DNA of 24,033 bases. Source: a virus. The DNA lies in IMG/VR virus record IMGVR_UViG_3300025086_000238, positions 1 to 24,033 of that record; one strand, given 5' to 3'. The translations under genes were made by a program, and so were the position numbers. The notes under the pieces were generated by a model. That model saw nothing but the letters and a program-made list of their open reading frames with translations, had not been told where the DNA came from and searched no databases. Positions 9,570 to 24,033 of the stretch are shown here, one piece after another; position 1 is the stretch's first letter; each line of letters opens with the position of its first letter.

Positions 9570-12500
9570 ATGGCAATAGAACAATATCTAAATAGTGAAA
9601 ACATAAAAGCATCAAATAAACCAATTGATGCATTACAACTCACAGCTGATGACCAAGAAGTAATTGCAAGTGAAGTAGTTGAAATACGTAAATTTGATGA
9701 TCCTGCTTTAGATGAAACAGTAGAGTTACATGTTTATGATATGATGAGTAATTATATCACAAGTGAACATACAGCTGATCACTGGAAAGCATTTAATACT
9801 GAAGACAGTCTTGTTCAATTTGATTTATATAAAAACTTTGATGACTTAGGAATCAAGCAAGGAACATATAAATTTGTTCTTAACTTTTTTAGACCAATTG
9901 TAGGTGATGATGCAAATCCATCATTATACATAAAAGAAATATCTGCAGATCGTACAGAATTAAAAGTATATATTGGTGACGAAAATATAAAACAAAAGAA
10001 AAAGGCCATTAAAACATTAGATATATCTGATTTAACAACATCAGAACAGCTATCAATGTTCCATACAAGAAGAAATGAGTTATGTGGTGATAATGGGTTT
10101 ATGAACTTATTATTCTTGAATTTTGGTAGAAATAGATTAGCACAATTTGTAAATTATAGATGGTTAAGTGATTCTAGAGAATTATATATTAAGTTATATC
10201 AACCATTACAGGAAAATTACAAAGAAAAACAACGACTATGGATAGTTCAACAAGTAAGACAACCATATACAGATAATGTAGTACTTTACAGAAAGCCAAT
10301 TGAATCTCCAACCAATGCAATGAGAGGTCCAAATTTTGAAGTGGATGCAAAATGGTCAAAAATTAACGAAACAAATTTCCAAAACTGGAACGATTTATTA
10401 GGATCTGCGACATCGACTTCACAGCAAATTATAGATAAAATGTTTTCTGGATCTTTACAAGGAGTAGAGTTAGGAATTGATTATTCTGGATTCCAAAACT
10501 TTGTTCATTACTCATCAGCTAAAGAAAGAGTTGCAAACTTTAAACATAAAATAGAATTAGTTGAATACTATGATGATCAAGTTAAAACATTAAATTCAGT
10601 ATCAGAATCTAACGAAGTAAATGCAAATAAATCTTTATACGAAAAATATAAAGATAATATTTTAGGCGGTTTTGATGGTTTTGAAAAATATCTTTATCAA
10701 TATAATACAGGAAGTATTTATACAAATGCAACCTCAGGTTCCAATATTGGACATGAAACGTTTGTTGTTGAGCCATGGCCAAAAGAAGGATACGGAGTAA
10801 CAACTTCAGATAAACAATTTACAGCTAACCAATGGACATTATGTCATTCAACATCATCTCAAGCAGAAGTATGGTATAATGCATTAGAAGCATCTGCTTC
10901 ATTATGGGATTTCCATAACGATCATGCATTAGTAAAAACAGTACCAGAACATATTAGAGAAGATAATAATAATTCTGAGTTTGAAACATTTGTACATATG
11001 ATTGGCCATCATTATGATATTATGTATTCATATGTTAAACATCAAACGGATGTATACAATAGAGATGAACATCATAGACATGGTTTATCAAAAGACTTAT
11101 TATATGAAACTGCAAAATCATTTGGTTGGCATTTAGAAAATGGAAATCAACATGAACGTTTATTTGAATATTTATTAGGTACAGATGAATTAGGATCATT
11201 TGGAAATATCAATGATAGAAGAATAGATGATAATTTAATATTATATGTTCCATTTGATGAAGGTAGGCCTGACTTTGCAAGACAAAATTTTATAGATTAT
11301 GGTATAGTAAAAGATCAAGCATTAGAAGCATTTGATAAACCAATATTTGAAGAAGGCGCACATGGTTGGGGCGGAAAATTTGATGGAACAAATTATCTAA
11401 AATATAATAAACCATATGACTATGGAACAGATGATTATGCAGTATCATTCTGGATAAAAGATGCAGACCTTACAAATGCAACCGGATATGTATTTAGCGC
11501 ATTATCAGGATCTGGAAATGATGCAGGATGGGGAATTTATGCAAATGCTCCATATGGAACGCTGAGATGGGTACAAAACTATTCAGGCTCTCATGGAGAA
11601 CATACAGTTACTCTTGATAAACATACTACAAAGATATTTTCATCATCATATCTTGATACAACGTCATTAGAAGGAACATCAACTGGGGGTGTATCAAATG
11701 GCTGGCATCACATAGTATTTAATGTTAATAGACAAGAAAGTGCATCTGCATACCTTAATGGAACATTTGTAGAAGGCACAGATATTTCAGTTAGTGGATC
11801 TCATGATATAGGACCTGAATCAACAGGTGATTATCCAAAACCAATTCTTGGTGCAAGAGATACTAATAATACAGGAGTCCCTTATAGTAACTTTACTGGT
11901 TCATTAGATGAGTTTAGAATATATAACAGAACATTAACAGATGCAGAAATATCAGATTTATATACAAATAAATCACAATATATAACTCAATCATCAGCCG
12001 TATCATTTGCAACTCCAAAAGAAGATTTAACAAAGCAGGTATGGAGAAGAGTAGTTAATAATTTACCTCACCTATTAAAAACAAAAGGAACATCTAGATC
12101 AGTTAAAGCTTTATTATCATGTTACGGTATTCCAGAATCTTTATTATCTATTAGAGAATATGGTGGACCTAAAATGCCAAAATCTGAACCAGCAGGAATA
12201 TATGATCAATTCTCATATGCATTGCAAATACAATCTGGTTCATATGTAGAATTTACTCATGATCATTATAAAACAGATTTATATGATTGGGGATTCCAAA
12301 GAGAGTATTTATCTGCAGGAGATACAATACCTGATCAAACAAGAGAGTGGAGATTCAAACCAGCAATAACAGCAAGTATGATAATTTACTCTGCAGGTCT
12401 TGTAGGTGCCATACCAGTGCCTATATCACATATTGCAATTGAATATACAGGTTCATATTCAGGTAGTGCAAATTATGGTAGAGTGCATTATGTGCATGGA

Positions 12501-15371
12501 CAAGGTGCTGGATCAACAACACCAATGACAGCATCATCAGATTGGGCTCCATTATATGATGGTAATTTTTGGAACTTGAGATATTATTGGGAAGCAACCG
12601 GATCTGACTCAGGAATATATAATATAGCTGCTAGTACCAATGTCACTTACCATGTACAGGTACAACAAGCTTCAGATTATGTTAAAGGAAAATTAATCCA
12701 TTCAGCAAGTTTATCTGTTACTCCAACTTATAATGCACATAACAATGCATGGAGTACAGCAACAGGAGCAACAGCTGGATATCTAGGAGGCCAAACTGGA
12801 TCAACTGGTGGAAATACCTTCAAAGTAAATCAATACTTAAATCATGCAATTGGAAATGGATCAACATCAGGTGGTGCATCTGATCCTGCAGGAATAGGAA
12901 CATTTACAGGTTCATTCCAAGAATATCGCGAATGGTTAGAAAATATAGGTCAAAATGCATTTGATAAACATACATTGAATCCAAAATCATATGTATCATC
13001 AATTAGCGCAACTTCATCATTTGATACATTGGTAAGGCATTATACTTTTGGAACAAATCAAAAAGGATATAATCATGCAGCGACAATTTATATTTCATCA
13101 TCACATCCAAATCAAGCTATTCAAGACTTTTCTGATCCAGTAAATGATGGAACAACATCATGGGCAACCGCAAGTAATTTCCAAACACCATGGGATACTG
13201 TTAATAATGATCATTATGAGCGAGTAGAAGAAACATATTATATTCATGGACCAAGTATTGGAGGAAAGAATTTAAAATCAGAAAAAATAAGAATTGAAGA
13301 TAATAAATTAGTTCATCCATTGAATAGAGAAACTAGAGGAGAAATAAGTCAGTATGATACAGTATCAAATGATTCTGCTAAACTAGGAATATATTTCTCT
13401 CCTCAGGATATGATAAACAAAGATATTTTCAATCAAATAGGTAACGTTGCATTAGATGATTTCTTTGGTTCTGCAGAAGATCAATACAAAGAATTGTATC
13501 CAAAACTAAAAACATTTGCTCATAGATATTGGAGAAAATATGAAAATGATAATGATATAAATGCATATATAAGAATATTTGCATTATTTGATTTTTCATT
13601 CTTCTCGCAACTAAAACAGTTAATACCAGTTAGGACAAATGCAGATTTAGGGCTGATAGTTGAACCAAGTGTGCTAGAAAGGTCTAAAGTAATGGTAGAG
13701 GCAGAACCTTCAAGAGAAGAACTGCATTATGAAGATTTTATACCAGATCCTTTCCCTGATCCAATCATGGACATATTACCATTAACAGCATCTGTAGATG
13801 CATTAGAACCTTTAGAAGCTGAACCAATGCATTATACTGCATCTATTTCAGATATACAAACAATGGAAGGTGAGCCAATGCATTATACAGGTTCTTTAAA
13901 TTTTGAAGTTCCTGTTCATTCTAATTTATCAGGTTCATTGACAAGATCAATTGTTACAGTAAATGATGTTATTAATGGAACTAATTTAGGAGTATATAAA
14001 ATAGCAACCGGATCAGTTGACGGAGATGATTACACAGATCCAGGAATAGATTTATTTAGAATAGGAGATGGATATCCTGGAGCAACATATAGGTATATAG
14101 GCGTAAGATATGATACAACAAATGGTGGTTGGATAACGCAGTCAAGACATGAATTAGAATGGTCACCAACCGGCTCTGTAGTAATGGAACAACGTAAATC
14201 TCCGATGTTTAGTAAAAAGGTATTTTATTATGGACCTGAAAATGCTGCATCACATCACTTTAGATTGGATAACTTTAATGGTTCAAGAATGTTAGATTCT
14301 AGACCAACTTATAACCATTCATCAGGCTCCGGATTTGAATCAGTAAATACTTCAGGAACTGCAACTCAGAAAGCTGCATCAACTGCTAGATTTGAAACGA
14401 TAACTCATAATAATTGGACCGGCCAAGCCATGTTATTTGATCTTCAAGGACCACAGTTATCTGCGACACATAATAGAGGAGGTACTAGAATCAAATTAAC
14501 AGATGATATAATGCTTCCAAAATCTGATAACACAGGAAAGTTTAGTATATCAGTAATATTGAAACCTGCTTCTGGATCAGGTGAAGGGGATATTGCATTT
14601 CTTGGTAGAGGAGATGCAACAAATCCTGGATTCTGGATTAATAATTATGGTAATTTGGTTGCAAGATCTGAAGATGCAACTTATTGGGGTACATTAGGAT
14701 CAGGCTTCCAAACAGCTGAATGGAACTCAAGATGGGACGGAGGACAAGCCTGGCCAGTAACAAATGATGCTGCAAGAGATACAAATCATCTAGCATATAC
14801 ATATGACGGTACAGATCCAGAAAATGCAACTATGAAGTTTTACTTAAACGGAAGATTGCAAAACACAGTTACCAAAGATGTAACTGGTGATGTAGGTTTA
14901 GGAAGATGGAGAATTAGACATATTGGTATGGGATATAAATCATCAGCAAATACATATGCATATTCAGGATCAATGGCACAGCTTCAGATATTTGATGATT
15001 ATTGTTTATCAGCCCAAGAAGTTAAAACATTAAACAAATATCCAGATATGCAAGCAAATAGAGATTGGGGAGATGAAAGAGGTAGAAAAGGTAGAATATA
15101 TATGACTAGAGCAAGACGAAGTAATGGATATGGTACATTTACAGATCTAGGAACATTTTCTACCAGCCATTCATTACAACCAGCAGATTATAGAGATGAT
15201 GCATTAGATTCATCATATTATGAAGGATCAAAATTAACGGCACCAGGGATAAATGAATTCTCAAATCAGACAACAGATGGGGAAGAAGTAGTAAAAATAA
15301 CATTAAGAAACAGATATAGTTTAGTATATAAGAAAGATTTACCATCTGGAGGTAATTTAGATGTTAGATAA
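9570..15371 (+). CDS. Giant structural protein (1933 residues) with two LamG-like domains
   Basis: Starts at ATG 9570 with AAGGA at 9554-9558. Residues about 1-470 are unrecognised but carry a charged, helix-and-strand mix. Residues about 477-527 hold a helical motif (GHHYDIMYSYVKHQTDVYN, then GLSKDLLYETAKSFGW), and 832-869 hold LPHLLKTKGTSRSVKALLSCYGIP with REYGGP. I associate both with large baseplate or tail proteins of T4-like environmental phages. LamG-like domain 1 spans about 555-802, from LILYVPFDEG through GWGGKFDG, YAVSFWIK and GWHHIVFNVNR to GSLDEFRIYNRTLTDAEI. LamG-like domain 2 spans about 1620-1826, ending GSMAQLQIFDDYCLSAQEV. Such beta-sandwich domains commonly bind glycans. 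Between them lies a duplicated EPMHYT element. T4 gp7 (1032 residues) is the large wedge protein at a similar place, so this could be a gp7-like wedge enlarged by lectin domains. No catalytic motif was found. Confidence 0.7.
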   Translation: MAIEQYLNSENIKASNKPIDALQLTADDQEVIASEVVEIRKFDDPALDETVELHVYDMMSNYITSEHTADHWKAFNTEDSLVQFDLYKNFDDLGIKQGTYKFVLNFFRPIVGDDANPSLYIKEISADRTELKVYIGDENIKQKKKAIKTLDISDLTTSEQLSMFHTRRNELCGDNGFMNLLFLNFGRNRLAQFVNYRWLSDSRELYIKLYQPLQENYKEKQRLWIVQQVRQPYTDNVVLYRKPIESPTNAMRGPNFEVDAKWSKINETNFQNWNDLLGSATSTSQQIIDKMFSGSLQGVELGIDYSGFQNFVHYSSAKERVANFKHKIELVEYYDDQVKTLNSVSESNEVNANKSLYEKYKDNILGGFDGFEKYLYQYNTGSIYTNATSGSNIGHETFVVEPWPKEGYGVTTSDKQFTANQWTLCHSTSSQAEVWYNALEASASLWDFHNDHALVKTVPEHIREDNNNSEFETFVHMIGHHYDIMYSYVKHQTDVYNRDEHHRHGLSKDLLYETAKSFGWHLENGNQHERLFEYLLGTDELGSFGNINDRRIDDNLILYVPFDEGRPDFARQNFIDYGIVKDQALEAFDKPIFEEGAHGWGGKFDGTNYLKYNKPYDYGTDDYAVSFWIKDADLTNATGYVFSALSGSGNDAGWGIYANAPYGTLRWVQNYSGSHGEHTVTLDKHTTKIFSSSYLDTTSLEGTSTGGVSNGWHHIVFNVNRQESASAYLNGTFVEGTDISVSGSHDIGPESTGDYPKPILGARDTNNTGVPYSNFTGSLDEFRIYNRTLTDAEISDLYTNKSQYITQSSAVSFATPKEDLTKQVWRRVVNNLPHLLKTKGTSRSVKALLSCYGIPESLLSIREYGGPKMPKSEPAGIYDQFSYALQIQSGSYVEFTHDHYKTDLYDWGFQREYLSAGDTIPDQTREWRFKPAITASMIIYSAGLVGAIPVPISHIAIEYTGSYSGSANYGRVHYVHGQGAGSTTPMTASSDWAPLYDGNFWNLRYYWEATGSDSGIYNIAASTNVTYHVQVQQASDYVKGKLIHSASLSVTPTYNAHNNAWSTATGATAGYLGGQTGSTGGNTFKVNQYLNHAIGNGSTSGGASDPAGIGTFTGSFQEYREWLENIGQNAFDKHTLNPKSYVSSISATSSFDTLVRHYTFGTNQKGYNHAATIYISSSHPNQAIQDFSDPVNDGTTSWATASNFQTPWDTVNNDHYERVEETYYIHGPSIGGKNLKSEKIRIEDNKLVHPLNRETRGEISQYDTVSNDSAKLGIYFSPQDMINKDIFNQIGNVALDDFFGSAEDQYKELYPKLKTFAHRYWRKYENDNDINAYIRIFALFDFSFFSQLKQLIPVRTNADLGLIVEPSVLERSKVMVEAEPSREELHYEDFIPDPFPDPIMDILPLTASVDALEPLEAEPMHYTASISDIQTMEGEPMHYTGSLNFEVPVHSNLSGSLTRSIVTVNDVINGTNLGVYKIATGSVDGDDYTDPGIDLFRIGDGYPGATYRYIGVRYDTTNGGWITQSRHELEWSPTGSVVMEQRKSPMFSKKVFYYGPENAASHHFRLDNFNGSRMLDSRPTYNHSSGSGFESVNTSGTATQKAASTARFETITHNNWTGQAMLFDLQGPQLSATHNRGGTRIKLTDDIMLPKSDNTGKFSISVILKPASGSGEGDIAFLGRGDATNPGFWINNYGNLVARSEDATYWGTLGSGFQTAEWNSRWDGGQAWPVTNDAARDTNHLAYTYDGTDPENATMKFYLNGRLQNTVTKDVTGDVGLGRWRIRHIGMGYKSSANTYAYSGSMAQLQIFDDYCLSAQEVKTLNKYPDMQANRDWGDERGRKGRIYMTRARRSNGYGTFTDLGTFSTSHSLQPADYRDDALDSSYYEGSKLTAPGINEFSNQTTDGEEVVKITLRNRYSLVYKKDLPSGGNLDVR
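13815..13888 (+). repeat. Short tandem duplication encoding E-x-EPMHYT
   Basis: Two near-identical 23-base copies at 13815-13837 and 13866-13888, both ending CCAATGCATTATAC, start 51 bases (17 codons) apart in frame. They encode EAEPMHYTAS and EGEPMHYTGS in the giant structural protein. A related but weaker acidic LEPLEAEP stretch precedes them. This looks like an internal duplication in a linker. Confidence 0.6.
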
Positions 15372-20473: not shown

Positions 20474-20884
20474 ATGGCTTGGAGAAGTAAAAGTAAATTA
20501 CGTAGAAATGCAATTAAACATGGTTATAGATCTGGATTCGAACATAAAGTATCAGATCAGTTAAAAGAAAACAAAATTAAGTTTGAATATGAAACAACAG
20601 TAATACCATATATCAAACCAGAAACTAAACATACTTATACAATTGATTTTACATTACCAAATGGAATACTAGTTGAAACAAAAGGAAGGTGGGTAGCAGA
20701 AGACCGTAAAAAACACTTACTTATTAAAAAACAACATCCTGAGTTAGATATAAGGATAGTATTCATGTCTGGTAAAACAAAAATTAGAAAAGGTTCACCA
20801 ACTACATATGGAATGTGGTGTGATAAGCATGGAATTCCATGGGCAGAAAAAACAATTCCAACTTCATGGTTTTCTGAAAAATAA
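20474..20884 (+). CDS. T7 endonuclease I-like Holliday junction resolvase
   Basis: 136 residues (T7 gp3 is 149). The motif order follows T7 endonuclease I: GYRSGFEHKV with E23, YTIDFTLPNG with D58, and VETKGR with E68 and K70. These correspond to T7 E20, D55, E65 and K67, all shifted by exactly three residues, so the PD-(D/E)XK active site is complete. The helix DRKKHLLIKKQHPELDIR and the C-terminal KGSPTTYGMWCDKHGIPWAEK block also match the family. The enzyme acts as a dimer that cuts four-way and branched DNA, clearing recombination and replication junctions before packaging. T4 uses the unrelated gp49 (endonuclease VII) for this. The start is one base after the phoH stop with no clear ribosome binding site, so translation is probably coupled. 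A very small chance remains that it is a repair enzyme of the same fold. Confidence 0.92.
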   Translation: MAWRSKSKLRRNAIKHGYRSGFEHKVSDQLKENKIKFEYETTVIPYIKPETKHTYTIDFTLPNGILVETKGRWVAEDRKKHLLIKKQHPELDIRIVFMSGKTKIRKGSPTTYGMWCDKHGIPWAEKTIPTSWFSEK

Positions 20885-20921: not shown

Positions 20922-21845
20922 ATGACGAATTTTAAATTACTAACATTAATAGAATCTGTACTCGGAAAGGGTAGATCTACTAATAAAGGCAATGTAGCTT
21001 TTCACTGTCCTTTTTGCCATCATAACAAAAAGAAGTTAGAAGTTAACATCCTTTCTCAACACTGGCATTGCTGGGTATGTAATGCGGCAGGCCGTAAAAT
21101 AATTACATTATTTAAAAAGTTAAAAGTTGAACGATTTAAAATATCTAAATTATTTGAATATATTGAAGAAACAGAATATAGACCTAAAATAACTACTACA
21201 AATACAAAGGCAGTAGAATTACCACCCGAGTTCAAGCCATTATGGAAAATAAACACATTATCACCAGAATATAGAAATGCGGTTTATTATCTTAAAAAAC
21301 GAGGTATTACTATTCATGATATTCTTAAATATAGAATAGGATATTGCGAAACTGGACAATATTCAGGAAAGGTTATTATTCCTAGTTATGATGCAAATGG
21401 AGTATTAAATTACTTTGTTGGAAGAGCTTACTATGAAGATGATAATTTTAAACATAAAAATCCACAGGTATCAAAAGATATTGTAGGATTTGAGTTACAT
21501 ATTAACTGGAATTATCCAGTATGTTTAGTTGAAGGAGCTTTTGATGCAATTGCAATAAGAAGGAATGCAATTCCATTATTTGGTAAAACAATACCAGATC
21601 AACTTAAACATCGTATTATAGAAAATAATGTAAAAATAATTTATATATGTCTTGACCAAGATGCAAGAAAACAAGCTATTGAAACGGCTGAATATTTTAT
21701 GGCAAATGGAGTAGATGTATATTTTGTAGACTTAAAAGAAAAAGATCCAAGTGAAGTAGGTTTTGGAAAAATTAATAACATATTAGCTGGAACAGAAAAA
21801 CTTACTTCTAGTTGGCTAATAGAGCAAAGGATAATGGGAATATGA
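20922..21845 (+). CDS. gp61: DNA primase (zinc finger plus Toprim, T4 gp61 type)
   Basis: 307 residues, against 342 for T4 gp61. An N-terminal zinc ribbon uses C29-x2-C32 and C50-x2-C53 (HCPFC and HCWVC), which in this family recognises the priming site. A linker rich in Thr/Lys follows (80-100). The Toprim catalytic domain includes SGKVIIPSYDANG (148-160), LVEGAFDAIAI with E204, and ICLDQDARKQA with the D245-x-D247 pair, the metal-binding residues. DLKEKDPSEVG (270-280) is the usual end motif. The protein makes short RNA primers for lagging-strand synthesis, normally together with a DnaB-type helicase (T4 gp41), which is not in the window. The TGA stop overlaps the next ATG in ATGA (21842-21845), so primase and the Mre11-Rad50 gene are probably translated together. 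Confidence 0.92.
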   Translation: MTNFKLLTLIESVLGKGRSTNKGNVAFHCPFCHHNKKKLEVNILSQHWHCWVCNAAGRKIITLFKKLKVERFKISKLFEYIEETEYRPKITTTNTKAVELPPEFKPLWKINTLSPEYRNAVYYLKKRGITIHDILKYRIGYCETGQYSGKVIIPSYDANGVLNYFVGRAYYEDDNFKHKNPQVSKDIVGFELHINWNYPVCLVEGAFDAIAIRRNAIPLFGKTIPDQLKHRIIENNVKIIYICLDQDARKQAIETAEYFMANGVDVYFVDLKEKDPSEVGFGKINNILAGTEKLTSSWLIEQRIMGI

Positions 21846-24033
21846 TAAATAGAATATATCACATAGCAGATGTACATATAAGAAATGTTAAACGTCATAA
21901 AGAATATAGACAAGTATTTAAACGATTATATTCTTATATAAAAAAGACAAAACAAGAAAATGATATTATTTATATTGCTGGAGATATTGTACACGCAAAA
22001 ACAGATATGTCACCAGAGTTAATTGATTTAACATCTGAATTCTTTTCTAATTTAGCAGATTTATTACCTACCATAGTAATTTTAGGAAATCATGATTGTA
22101 ACCTAAATAACAATTATAGACTGGATGCCTTAAGTCCTATTGTTAAAGCCATCAATCATAAGAACTTACACTATCTTAAAGACAACGATGTATATGATAT
22201 CCAAGGTGTACACTTTAACGTAATGGCGGTGGATGAAAAGCCTGCAAAATATATAAAAGCATCTGATTTTGAAGGTAATTTTAAGATAGCATTACATCAT
22301 GGTTCGGTACATAACGCATCAACAGATGCTGGATTTACATTAAGTAATACTCATGTTACAACAGATATGTTTATAGGACATGATTTGGTATTATTAGGTG
22401 ATATCCATAAACCACAATATTTAGATGATAAGAAAACAATTGCATATGCTGGTTCTTTAATTCAACAAAATCATGGAGAATCTTTAGGTCATGGAATAAT
22501 GATTTGGGATTTAAAAACTAAAAAATCTGAATTTGTTGAAATTGAAAATGATTATGGTTATTATACATACGAAATTGATAATGGCAAAATTATCAATCCA
22601 GACTCAAGAGTACCTAAAAAACCAAGATTGAGATTAAAAGTAAAAGATACAGATTCTGGAACCTTAAAACAAATAATTGCAGATATTCGATCTAAATATA
22701 AAGTCCAAGATATTTCAATTCAAAAAATAAATGCATTAAATACAACAGATTCAAAAAATAAAATTAATTTTGGAAATGTGCGAGATGTAGAATGGCAAAA
22801 CAATGTTATTACAGAATATCTAACAGATGAATTTGCGCTTGATGATGAATTGCTAGATACAGTTAGACATATAAATAGAACCGTTCATTCAAAATTACCA
22901 ACTAATACATTAACAAGAAATATTACTTGGCAACCTAAGAAATTTGAATTTTCAAACATGTTTAGTTATGGTGAAGATAATGAAATTGATTTTTCAAATA
23001 TGAATGGAACATATGGATTATTTGCACCAAATGCATCTGGTAAATCAACATTATTAGATGCATTAGCATTTACTTGTTTTGATAGATGTAGTCGTACAAA
23101 AAAAGCTGCTCATGTATTAAATAATAAAAAATCTAGATTCCATTGTAAGTTTGAATTTGAATTAGGAAAATATATATACTTTATTGAAAGGACAGGAAAA
23201 AAGAATAATCGTGGTCATGTAAAAGTAGATGTAAATTTTTGGAGAGTTGATAAAGACGGAAATGAAGAATCATTAAATGGAGACCAAAGAGATTCTACAA
23301 ATAAAAGTATAAGACAATATCTTGGATCATATGAAGACTTTGTATTAACAGCATTATCATTACAAAATAATAATACAGGCTTTATTGATAAAACTCAAAG
23401 AGAACGAAAAGATTTATTATCACAGTTTTTAGATATTGATATTTTTGAACAACAATATTTGGTAGGCCATGAAGATATTAGAGAAACAGCTGCATTAATA
23501 AGAGAATACAAAAGAAAAGATTTTTCAACTGATTTATCAACTGCTAGGGAAATTATATCTCAATATACCGGATCATATGAACAAATGAAAGTTGACAAGA
23601 CAGAACATGAAGAAATGAAAACAAATCTCAATGATATCATTTTTTCGTTAACAAAAGAATTAAAAAAAGTTGATGATACATTAGATTCACCAGATGATAT
23701 TAAATATGAAATTACTCAATTATCTGATAGAATTGGAAATTTAAAATTAGACCGAGAACATCAAAAAGATTTAATTAAGTCTCAACAAAAATTAATAAAA
23801 GAAATAACCCAAAAAATAAATAAGATTGATGAACAATCTTTAAAAGATGCATTAGTAGAATTAAAAGATTATAATGATACTGTTATTAAATTAAATAACG
23901 ATCTTAAATTAAAACAATTAAAAATACAACATGCTCAAAAAATGGTTTCAAAATTAGATAAACATGAATGGGATGAAGATTGTAGTTATTGTATGGCTAA
24001 TCCATGGTTAAAAGAAACTCAACAAGTTGCAGA
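21842..24033 (+). CDS. Mre11-Rad50 (gp47-gp46) single-chain fusion, 3' end missing
   Basis: The frame is open for 730 codons to the window edge with no stop, from ATG 21842 (overlapping the primase TGA; AAAGGA at 21826-21831). Residues 1-260 are an Mre11/SbcD/gp47 nuclease with all phosphoesterase motifs: D10-V-H12, G47-D48, GNHD 82-85, H152-H153, GDIH 186-189 and AYAGSL 201-206. About 260-365 would be the capping and ATPase-binding part. Without a stop or new start, a Rad50/SbcC/gp46 ATPase begins: WQPKKFEFSNMFSYGEDNEI (363-382), Walker A APNASGKST (395-403) and the Q-loop LSLQNN with Q508. A Lys/Glu-rich coiled coil runs about 545-712, then the zinc hook C714-S-Y-C717. The returning coil, signature motif and Walker B lie beyond the window. 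The complex resects DNA ends for recombination-dependent replication. T4 makes nuclease and ATPase as separate proteins. Confidence 0.92.
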   Translation, partial: MINRIYHIADVHIRNVKRHKEYRQVFKRLYSYIKKTKQENDIIYIAGDIVHAKTDMSPELIDLTSEFFSNLADLLPTIVILGNHDCNLNNNYRLDALSPIVKAINHKNLHYLKDNDVYDIQGVHFNVMAVDEKPAKYIKASDFEGNFKIALHHGSVHNASTDAGFTLSNTHVTTDMFIGHDLVLLGDIHKPQYLDDKKTIAYAGSLIQQNHGESLGHGIMIWDLKTKKSEFVEIENDYGYYTYEIDNGKIINPDSRVPKKPRLRLKVKDTDSGTLKQIIADIRSKYKVQDISIQKINALNTTDSKNKINFGNVRDVEWQNNVITEYLTDEFALDDELLDTVRHINRTVHSKLPTNTLTRNITWQPKKFEFSNMFSYGEDNEIDFSNMNGTYGLFAPNASGKSTLLDALAFTCFDRCSRTKKAAHVLNNKKSRFHCKFEFELGKYIYFIERTGKKNNRGHVKVDVNFWRVDKDGNEESLNGDQRDSTNKSIRQYLGSYEDFVLTALSLQNNNTGFIDKTQRERKDLLSQFLDIDIFEQQYLVGHEDIRETAALIREYKRKDFSTDLSTAREIISQYTGSYEQMKVDKTEHEEMKTNLNDIIFSLTKELKKVDDTLDSPDDIKYEITQLSDRIGNLKLDREHQKDLIKSQQKLIKEITQKINKIDEQSLKDALVELKDYNDTVIKLNNDLKLKQLKIQHAQKMVSKLDKHEWDEDCSYCMANPWLKETQQVA

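Follow-up and report, generated by a model that had tools for sequence, protein, structure and literature searches.

The window analysed here, a 24,033-nucleotide stretch spanning positions 1 to 24,033 of the IMG/VR virus record IMGVR_UViG_3300025086_000238, ends inside a reading frame in which the motifs of an Mre11-type nuclease are followed by those of a Rad50-type ATPase. This raises the questions of whether the two enzymes are indeed parts of a single protein, whether such a protein has precedents, and how it might work. To the first of these the answer is plain: this marine phage gene encodes an Mre11 nuclease and a Rad50 ATPase as one protein. Translation of positions 21842..24033 (+ strand) gives 730 codons without a stop in a frame still open at the contig end, and Pfam and PHROGs matches confirm that this single frame covers both enzymes; nuclease and ATPase profiles likewise match single chains, nuclease first, in full-length relatives. 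These are the first 730 of the ~1043 codons of a fused SbcD(Mre11)-SbcC(Rad50) gene whose 3' end is lost at the contig end. Extension of the contig, proposed as a check by the first-pass annotation, was provided by a 103-kb contig (L007), 99.95% identical at the DNA level, in which the ORF continues through signature motif and Walker B to a stop, giving one protein of 1043 aa. The nuclease had also rightly been placed N-terminal to the ATPase in one polypeptide, an order found in more than 100 related loci, and a stop or restart at residues 260-365, linker included, was sought in close relatives and found in none of the fused relatives covering that part.

That the window is a fragment, with the gene truncated at its end, could suggest two neighbouring genes merged by assembly or sequencing error. 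However, the same sequence recurs in two other contigs (L002 and L007), 99.95% identical across the stretch with one synonymous difference and listed under two other metagenome ids, from samples possibly independent of the window's own. Moreover, 125 of 154 related loci are fused, with identities down to 38% among the matches listed; the most distant fused locus (L068) is 23% identical to L007; and the fusion is one CDS in the cultured phage Mel-JY01. Because so many diverged relatives are fused, we regard an assembly error as already refuted and its probability as negligible. In six further relatives of 83.6-88.7% DNA identity, synonymous changes outnumber amino-acid changes in the nuclease, in the cap and helix-loop-helix and in the ATPase N-lobe (6/6 each) and in the linker of five of the six (equal in the sixth), whereas amino-acid changes predominate in the coil of four.

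The nuclease and its capping domain (residues 3-296; 21848..22729, +) match Pfam Metallophos (residues 4-191, E 6.2e-11) and the PHROGs SbcD family (residues 2-298, E 5.6e-27), and the predicted fold resembles that of Staphylococcus aureus SbcD (7dog_B; Z 25.5, 3.3 Å over 273 residues). The set of Mre11 motifs had been described as complete, but two are non-canonical, namely GDIVH, in which the third motif-II Asp is a His, and GDIH (residues 186-189; 22397..22408, +) in place of GHxH, the latter lying just before a loop at which some relatives are cut. Both substitutions, the His in motif II and an Asp at the position of Pyrococcus furiosus His206, agree with those reported for R555 (PMC3175470). 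Of the 125 fusions, 124 have GDxxH where GDxxD would be canonical and at least 122 have GDIH where GHxH would be, and the loss of two canonical positions might mean that this half is no longer a nuclease and has a structural or regulatory role instead. We consider this quite improbable: phages with a two-gene system show identical changes in SbcD (both in Bacillus phage SPG24, GDLH in Vibrio phage D146, GDLFH in Staphylococcus phage GH15), Asp can bind metal, and D10, D48, N83, H84, H153, D187 and H189 are invariant in a 62-row alignment. GDxxH and GDxH were also considered as hallmarks of the fusion and rejected, since their occurrence in two-gene phage SbcD makes them undiagnostic.

The Rad50/SbcC part begins at residue 362, and the window covers its N-lobe, ascending coil and the start of its hook (22925..24033, +). 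It matches Pfam AAA_23 (residues 371-664, E 4.5e-8) and the PHROGs SbcC family (residues 339-718, E 1.8e-21), and residues 363-1043 of the full model match Escherichia coli SbcC (7yzo_D; Z 31.9, 3.1 Å over 349 residues). Walker A (residues 395-403; 23024..23050, +), read from translation and alignment, the Q-loop glutamine 508 (23363..23365, +; nearly invariant in 12 rows and invariant in 62) and C714 and C717 of the CxxC zinc hook (residues 714-717; 23981..23992, +) all lie at the positions first given for them; the ascending coiled-coil helices of the AlphaFold2 model occupy residues 533-706 (23438..23959, +). A CxxC within residues 600-850 is conserved in all 125 full-length fusions. Both halves of the ATPase were thus found, Walker A in the window and the post-coil signature, Walker B and D-loop in L007 and relatives, where alone the C-lobe motifs are read, the window ending before them. 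Instead of the canonical two-glycine LSGGQ type, the signature reads TSGMEK (SGGE in E. coli SbcC), and the pattern [T/S/A/C/L]SG[M/F/Y]E[K/R] describes 124 of 125 fusion rows, one being unmatched. Searched against PDB sequences, a profile of the fusion family retrieves SbcC, Rad50, SbcD and Mre11 chains.

Between the last nuclease motif and the ATPase, about 100-130 residues had first been counted. In the AlphaFold2 model these are no plain spacer but comprise a cap reaching residue 296, where the nuclease match ends, a pair of helices (316-331 and 335-350), a linker of ~11 residues (residues 351-361; 22892..22924, +; mean pLDDT 67 for 351-360) and the first Rad50 strand from residue 362. From its position and the published description of related fusions (PMC3175470), the helix-loop-helix (residues 316-350; 22787..22891, +) is likely the Rad50-binding domain. 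The predicted structure in this way combines cap, helix-loop-helix and a linker within the 9-12 residues that were argued, for linkers following the helix-loop-helix, to be compatible with the known Mre11-Rad50 complex (PMC3175470). The full model has a pTM of 0.44, so that its relative placing of the two halves is unreliable. The fusion directly entails a 1:1 ratio of nuclease to ATPase, as had been noted, whereas the altered ATP gating of the nuclease that was suggested with it seems less called for: since the predicted helix-loop-helix and ~11-residue linker are retained, the ordinary Mre11-Rad50 arrangement would be the simpler expectation. The lower model confidence of the linker and a nearly invariant Met373 near the start of the ATPase could point to a frame that yields two proteins, through linker cleavage or an internal start at the Rad50 part. 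Yet inspection of the window by eye revealed no Shine-Dalgarno-like sequence before the Met373 ATG, and a start at this residue would lose strand 1, as the Rad50 part begins 11 residues before it; we hold a two-protein product to be very improbable.

The gene lies in a conserved neighbourhood. The TGA of a DnaG-type primase gene (20922..21845, +; phrog_47, E 5.6e-38) overlaps the ATG of the fusion (ATGA), and a primase match ends no more than 400 bases upstream in 114 of the 115 fusion loci having at least 1.2 kb of upstream sequence. A phage endonuclease I of the T7 gp3 type is encoded at 20474..20884 (+; Pfam, E 4.1e-57), with a match anywhere in the locus in 104 of the same 115. In the 735-kb phage LR756501, the distant fusion L068 is not beside a primase gene and is accompanied by a second SbcC-family match.

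As to precedents, the first-pass annotation knew of no described example, but Yoshida, Claverie and Ogata reported 13 such fusions in 2011, namely the Mre11/Rad50 (SbcDC) fusion R555 of Mimivirus and 12 others (PMC3175470), and the novelty of the fusion falls accordingly. R555-like genes were found on marine scaffolds beside phage primases and T7-type endonucleases, and phages were suspected to be the home of many of them, on the basis of short scaffolds only (PMC3175470). By that published description, on which the likeness rests, the present gene shares with R555-type fusions the N-terminal Mre11, the cap and helix-loop-helix region, the short linker, the two nuclease-motif substitutions, the aquatic viral origin and scaffolds that also encode a phage primase and a T7-type endonuclease; it differs in length (~1043 against 1351 aa for R555), and the genes compared here are complete phage genes rather than short scaffolds (PMC3175470). 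Complete fusions in more than 100 contigs and several cultured phages support the 2011 suspicion (PMC3175470). One such phage, Microcystis phage Mel-JY01 (PP395634.1, titled a complete genome), for which a search of the open-licence literature by name found no paper, encodes a 1066-aa full-length fusion (WWT39521.1), which shares 43% identity with L007 across 100% of the query and whose annotation says no more than 'AAA domain containing protein'; the primase lies two genes upstream, with a small ORF in between. Nothing else in that record matches the SbcD family, and the two additional matches to the SbcC family are weak, with E-values of 7e-6 and 1.8e-4, and cover partial middle stretches of the profile. 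Tenacibaculum phages pT24 and PTm1, Sphingomonas phage PAU and Chryseobacterium phage MA9V-1 carry fused 'metallo-phosphoesterases' as single CDSs of 1301-1326 aa, which match L068 across 96-99% of its length; they are longer, only 23-24% identical to it, and form a separate clade of the fusion group. In the two-gene SbcD/SbcC systems (T4 gp47/gp46, Herelleviridae, E. coli SbcCD), the same domains in the same order make up two polypeptides, whereas no separate nuclease and ATPase genes are found here; the two Herelleviridae examined keep SbcD, SbcC and primase near one another.

At the level of sequence, the Mre11-Rad50 fusion is common in phages. The whole fusion lies in one frame at 125 of the 154 loci of the first related set (in which at least three contigs occur twice), and in a larger set of 292 loci with any match, all four test segments share a frame in 231, which represent 182 different translations. 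In trees, 13 phage fusions fall on one side of a branch separating them from six two-gene systems (nuclease 96/91, ATPase 90/83). Among the other 29 loci of the first set, 25 are truncated at the contig end and four are individual cases. L050 has one or more stops inside its ATPase N-lobe match ~85 bases before the contig end, probably reflecting a poor contig end; L067 is discussed below; and L154 and L155 are nuclease-only genes (277 and 302 aa, 33% identity) ending near the junction, within residues 260-365. Inspection of ORFs by eye recognised no SbcC gene within ~5 kb after L154, and the L155 contig looks chimeric by eye. These two loci speak against a strict 'always fused' reading. The Clostridium kluyveri and Deferribacter plasmid fusions did not appear in a tblastn search of the plasmid collection, which gave 4 records covering no more than 17% of the query, and Bacillus phage 0305phi8-36 (60, 60 and 13 rows) and, by name, Mimivirus were absent among the matches listed.

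We consider it highly probable that the gene belongs to a tailed phage and specifies an Mre11-Rad50 fusion of R555 type that works in the following way. The chain of ~1043 aa would run from nuclease through capping domain, helix-loop-helix, ~11-residue linker, Rad50 N-lobe and zinc-hook coil to the Rad50 C-lobe, and would be produced along with the primase, the two genes overlapping. Two such chains may pair via nuclease, heads and hook, with the helix-loop-helix docked, as when two genes encode the complex, on the root of the coil; as the heads bind and hydrolyse ATP, access to the nuclease would open and close, and the phage would use the enzyme in recombination-dependent replication to process DNA ends and hairpins. 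Fusion would guarantee a 1:1 supply and assembly in cis while keeping the ordinary mechanism. Frame, domain order, conservation, motifs and neighbours are observed and the fold of each half predicted, while the steps of pairing, docking, gating and role are modelled on SbcCD and T4 gp46/gp47. Observations at odds with this explanation are the one differing metal-ligand position in GDIH, the TSGMEK signature and the pTM of the model, together with the absence of a primase beside L068, the second SbcC-family match in LR756501 and the nuclease-only L154 and L155. As its stoichiometry is fixed, a natural single-chain Mre11-Rad50 of this size is attractive for structural work on ATP gating.

Some relatives carry a fusion that has been divided anew within the nuclease domain, in four lineages of a quick tree and always at one place, the loop between GDIH and the following strand (GSLIQQN). 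In one re-cut clade, of 34 contigs, the pieces are separated by a glycosyltransferase-like gene, and in another, of 6 contigs, by nothing; nearly all motifs are retained across both pieces, of which the first carries an acidic tail (net charge -3 to -10) and the second a short head (net charge 0 to +7). In 10 re-cut records, possibly incomplete, no other copy was found except for one weak coil match (LR756508). An intein was rejected as the cause: in L067, interrupted inside the nuclease domain, each of the two pieces and the ORF between them has a frame of its own, and the heads of piece 2 are short and, by eye, devoid of an intein end motif. No group I intron was matched by Rfam searches at relaxed E-values, which covered the insert regions of L067 and L182 as well as L269, L275, L276, L277, L278, L280 and L294. 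An undescribed intron may be present in insert-bearing loci, but is inapplicable to the six contigs because these have no insert. Reading of TGA as Trp was likewise rejected, as TAA terminates piece 1 of L204 and as both L202 and L204 use TGA to end genes; among the contigs compared it would join the pieces in L205 only (three TGA codons between), which makes L205 the weakest of the six.

A further reading, to which we give about even odds, is that the fusion was re-cut some four times at the GDIH/GSLIQQN loop, that tail and head form a clasp reassembling the nuclease, and that the catalytic part is again a separate, exchangeable or dose-controlled subunit. The metal-binding motifs would then reside on a free ~240-aa protein, and a second protein, of ~860 aa, would hold the last part of the nuclease fold together with cap, helix-loop-helix and Rad50, with the glycosyltransferase-like gene stably settled between the halves in one clade. 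We know of no split cellular Mre11 cut at this loop, and a search of the open-licence literature found no paper on a re-cut Mre11-Rad50 fusion. The re-cut relatives could serve as a natural experiment on how far a nuclease fold can be divided while still working. They look like a new case of the phage 'genes-in-pieces' known from Aeh1 nrdA split by mobE, split gene 43 and the T4 topoisomerase (PMC2988022). In all of them an enzyme gene is broken at a site that matters for function and its pieces are kept, but the published cases concern other enzymes, and the intervening gene of the largest re-cut clade is glycosyltransferase-like rather than an endonuclease gene (PMC2988022).

The reading frame that opens at ATG 21842 of the 24,033-base window (plus strand, 21842-24033) is still open where the contig ends. 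Pfam and PHROGs profiles placed an SbcD (Mre11)-type nuclease first and an SbcC (Rad50)-type ATPase after it, as the first-pass annotation had described, with the Walker A, Q-loop and CxxC motifs at the residues it gave. The gene starts in an ATGA overlap with the primase gene, and its final 313 codons are hidden by the contig end. The remainder expected beyond that end is supplied by a 103-kb contig (L007; DNA 99.95% identical to the window), in which the gene comprises 1043 codons with an SGMEK signature, the Walker B sequence AIDEGFG and a stop. A stop and restart within residues 260-365, named earlier as a possible sign of two genes, occurs in none of the fused relatives covering that stretch. 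The fusion is real rather than an artefact, and the initial observation was correctly read.

The full protein was modelled with AlphaFold2 from 62 sequences (mean pLDDT 84); because the pTM of the model is low (0.44), the relative placing of the two halves cannot be read from it. Modelled residues 3-296 resemble Staphylococcus aureus SbcD (Z 25.5, 3.3 A over 273 residues) and residues 363-1043 resemble Escherichia coli SbcC (Z 31.9, 3.1 A over 349 residues). Between them the model has two helices (316-331 and 335-350), followed by Rad50 strand 1 from 362, so by position the interdomain stretch would correspond to the Rad50-binding helix-loop-helix of two-gene complexes, plus about 11 residues. 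PMC3175470 reports that a helix-loop-helix with a 9-12-residue linker fits the Thermotoga maritima complex.

When the window protein was compared with viral contigs, 64 loci matched, to which three phage records, 79 new loci from an alignment-based scan (the best 80 of 596, one already counted) and eight loci on bacterial or archaeal genome contigs were added, for a total of 154 in which at least three contigs are counted twice. A complete nuclease, ATPase N-lobe and ATPase C-lobe share one frame at 125 of the 154. The remaining 29 comprise 25 ended by the contig end; L050, with a stop within the ATPase N-lobe about 85 bases short of its contig end; L067, interrupted within the nuclease domain; and L154 and L155, two distant genes that encode a nuclease alone (277 and 302 aa). 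After further scans, all four test segments were found in one frame at 231 of the 292 loci with any match (182 distinct translations). Codon changes were compared in six relatives at 83.6-88.7% DNA identity. In every one of them synonymous changes exceed amino-acid changes in the nuclease, the cap/helix-loop-helix and the ATPase N-lobe; in the 16-codon linker the counts are 1-6 synonymous versus 1-2 amino-acid changes (equal in one), and in the coil amino-acid changes prevail in four. Phage-type fusions at L148-L152 (L150 and L152 truncated) lie on contigs binned as Nitrosopelagicus, Chloroflexi, Gammaproteobacteria, Dehalococcoidia and an unnamed bacterium, and these are probably phage contigs placed in bacterial or archaeal bins. 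The phage-type SbcD gene of L155 (1409-2317) has neighbours that look non-phage by eye on a Flavobacteriaceae MAG contig, which is probably chimeric.

Motif II reads GDxxH, replacing GDxxD, in 124 of the 125 full fusions; the last metal motif is GDIH instead of GHxH in at least 122, the ATPase signature is SG[M/F/Y]E[K/R] in 124, and CxxC is present in all 125. The same two nuclease motif changes were reported for the Mimivirus fusion R555 in PMC3175470. GDxxH and GDIH were rejected as marks of fusion because two-gene phage SbcD proteins have them (both in Bacillus phage SPG24, GDLH in Vibrio phage D146, GDLFH in Staphylococcus phage GH15).

The suggestion that the arrangement was undescribed does not stand: this kind of finding has been known since 2011, when PMC3175470 presented R555 together with 12 more such proteins from bacteria, plasmids, eukaryotes and a single phage. 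Marine scaffolds with R555-like genes described there carry phage-primase-like genes (SPO1, A511, Twort and S-PM2 among them) and T7-gp3-like endonucleases, the same neighbourhood as in the window. In that paper the fusion was confirmed in environmental data for a few long sequences only, whereas here it is general. The present analysis adds full-length genes from phages, shows how abundant they are and how constantly they follow the primase, and brings in the re-cut clades. Among cultured phages, the fusion is a single CDS in Mel-JY01, Tenacibaculum pT24 and PTm1, Sphingomonas PAU and Chryseobacterium MA9V-1, and PTm5 and MA9V-2 also match, over 98% of the query and, in two pieces, over 84% of it, respectively. 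Only 2 of 664 phage records with a match cover at least 80% of the window protein in one place; two-gene systems among the records examined were those of Vibrio D146, SPG24, ACG-2014f, GH15 and also T4, and the match in Erwinia phage pEa_SNUABM_35 falls within a CDS of 357 codons.

At least 1.2 kb of upstream sequence is available for 115 full-fusion loci, and at 114 of them a primase match ends at most 400 bases upstream, the sole exception being the distant L068 of the 735-kb phage LR756501. Endonuclease I matches occur within 104 of these 115 loci, and PhoH, the next gene in the window, in 9. Terminase was found in five of six records examined; these are therefore tailed phages. The fusion is the sole SbcD-family match in Microcystis phage Mel-JY01 (190-kb record, titled complete genome), where the SbcC family also matches weakly in two other places (E 7e-6 and 1.8e-4), over only part of the profile. 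A second SbcC-family match in LR756501.1 (670999-672753) has four internal stop codons; either the stop is recoded there or the gene is broken. A 1933-codon ORF in the window (9570-15371) had no PHROG match at E 0.01; because baseplate and tape-measure-like genes occur in the same window, it may encode a large tail or fibre protein.

Fusions across life are not monophyletic according to PMC3175470. In small, unrooted trees that combine 13 phage fusions with 6 two-gene systems, built without R555 and cellular fusions, the fusions lie on one side of a branch (96/91 for the nuclease, 90/83 for the ATPase), and because they share that side a single fusion event may account for the 13. The working mode of SbcCD and T4 gp46/gp47 is established and forms the basis of the mechanism proposed here. 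By homology with these systems, two fusion chains would pair, their heads would engage with ATP, the ATP state would block or open the nuclease, and DNA ends would be resected for recombination-dependent replication; being fused probably secures equal amounts of the two parts and lets them assemble in cis.

Two loci with an interrupted match, L067 and L182, were the starting points for tracing relatives in which the fusion is in two pieces, always cut within the nuclease domain between GDIH and the following strand, GSLIQQN. Six contigs (L201-L206) have this cut without an insert, the pieces overlapping or nearly abutting: stop and start share ATGA in four, the overlap is larger in L204, and in L205 about 50 bases separate the pieces. 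An endonuclease-like ORF (PHROG HNH, Pfam TnsA-like N) lies between the pieces at L067 (4950-9172), and a different one, matching DUF7487 and, below cut-off, Vsr, at L182 (2995-7188; L182/L289). A further scan (the best 80 of 152) gave 78 loci, 77 of them new; in 34 the pieces are separated by an unrelated ORF of about 300 aa that overlaps each of them (L295-L328 minus L299 and L318, plus L346 and L355; e.g. L295, 1364-5598), 39 are uncut, two are no-insert contigs counted before and two are too truncated to tell. The modelled insert (pLDDT 77) resembles glycosyltransferase family 9 (3tov, Foldseek E 8e-9, TM 0.56); Pfam returned DUF354 alone, below cut-off.

A tree of 91 rows was made by a quick method; 7 of 248 loci, in which the start pattern was missed, were left out and the other 241 thinned by identity. 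On it, cut versus whole requires at least four changes, gains and losses not being told apart; the six no-insert contigs form one clade (SH-aLRT 100) and L067 sits on a long branch. Piece 1 retains all five nuclease motif patterns in 14 of 17 cut loci, the exceptions being the truncated L201 and L280 and L289, in which the loose HGxV pattern alone is missing. Piece 2 has Walker A and CxxC in all 17, the signature pattern in 16 and the Walker B pattern likewise in 16. A whole-fusion profile revealed no other fusion copy beyond the two pieces in 10 possibly incomplete records, LR756508 giving one weak coil match. Across the 17 loci, piece-1 tails have a net charge of -3 to -10 and piece-2 heads of 0 to +7; heads of the glycosyltransferase clade span 0 to +3 and those of the no-insert clade +4 to +5. 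Phage enzyme genes split by homing endonucleases with function kept are known (PMC2988022), and we read the re-cut relatives as a new case of such splitting; the endonuclease is absent in two re-cut clades and was perhaps lost.

Uncut L271 and L274 have a 53-residue loop at the place of the others' cut, which by eye resembles tail and head joined, and L078 has a 36-residue loop. At L294 (2389-5224), a GIY-YIG homing endonuclease ORF interrupts the fusion in the ATPase N-lobe, with no Rfam intron match. Upstream of the cut fusion of L067, a 484-kb phage, an ORF at 1292-2518 resembles IS605-type TnpB by eye.
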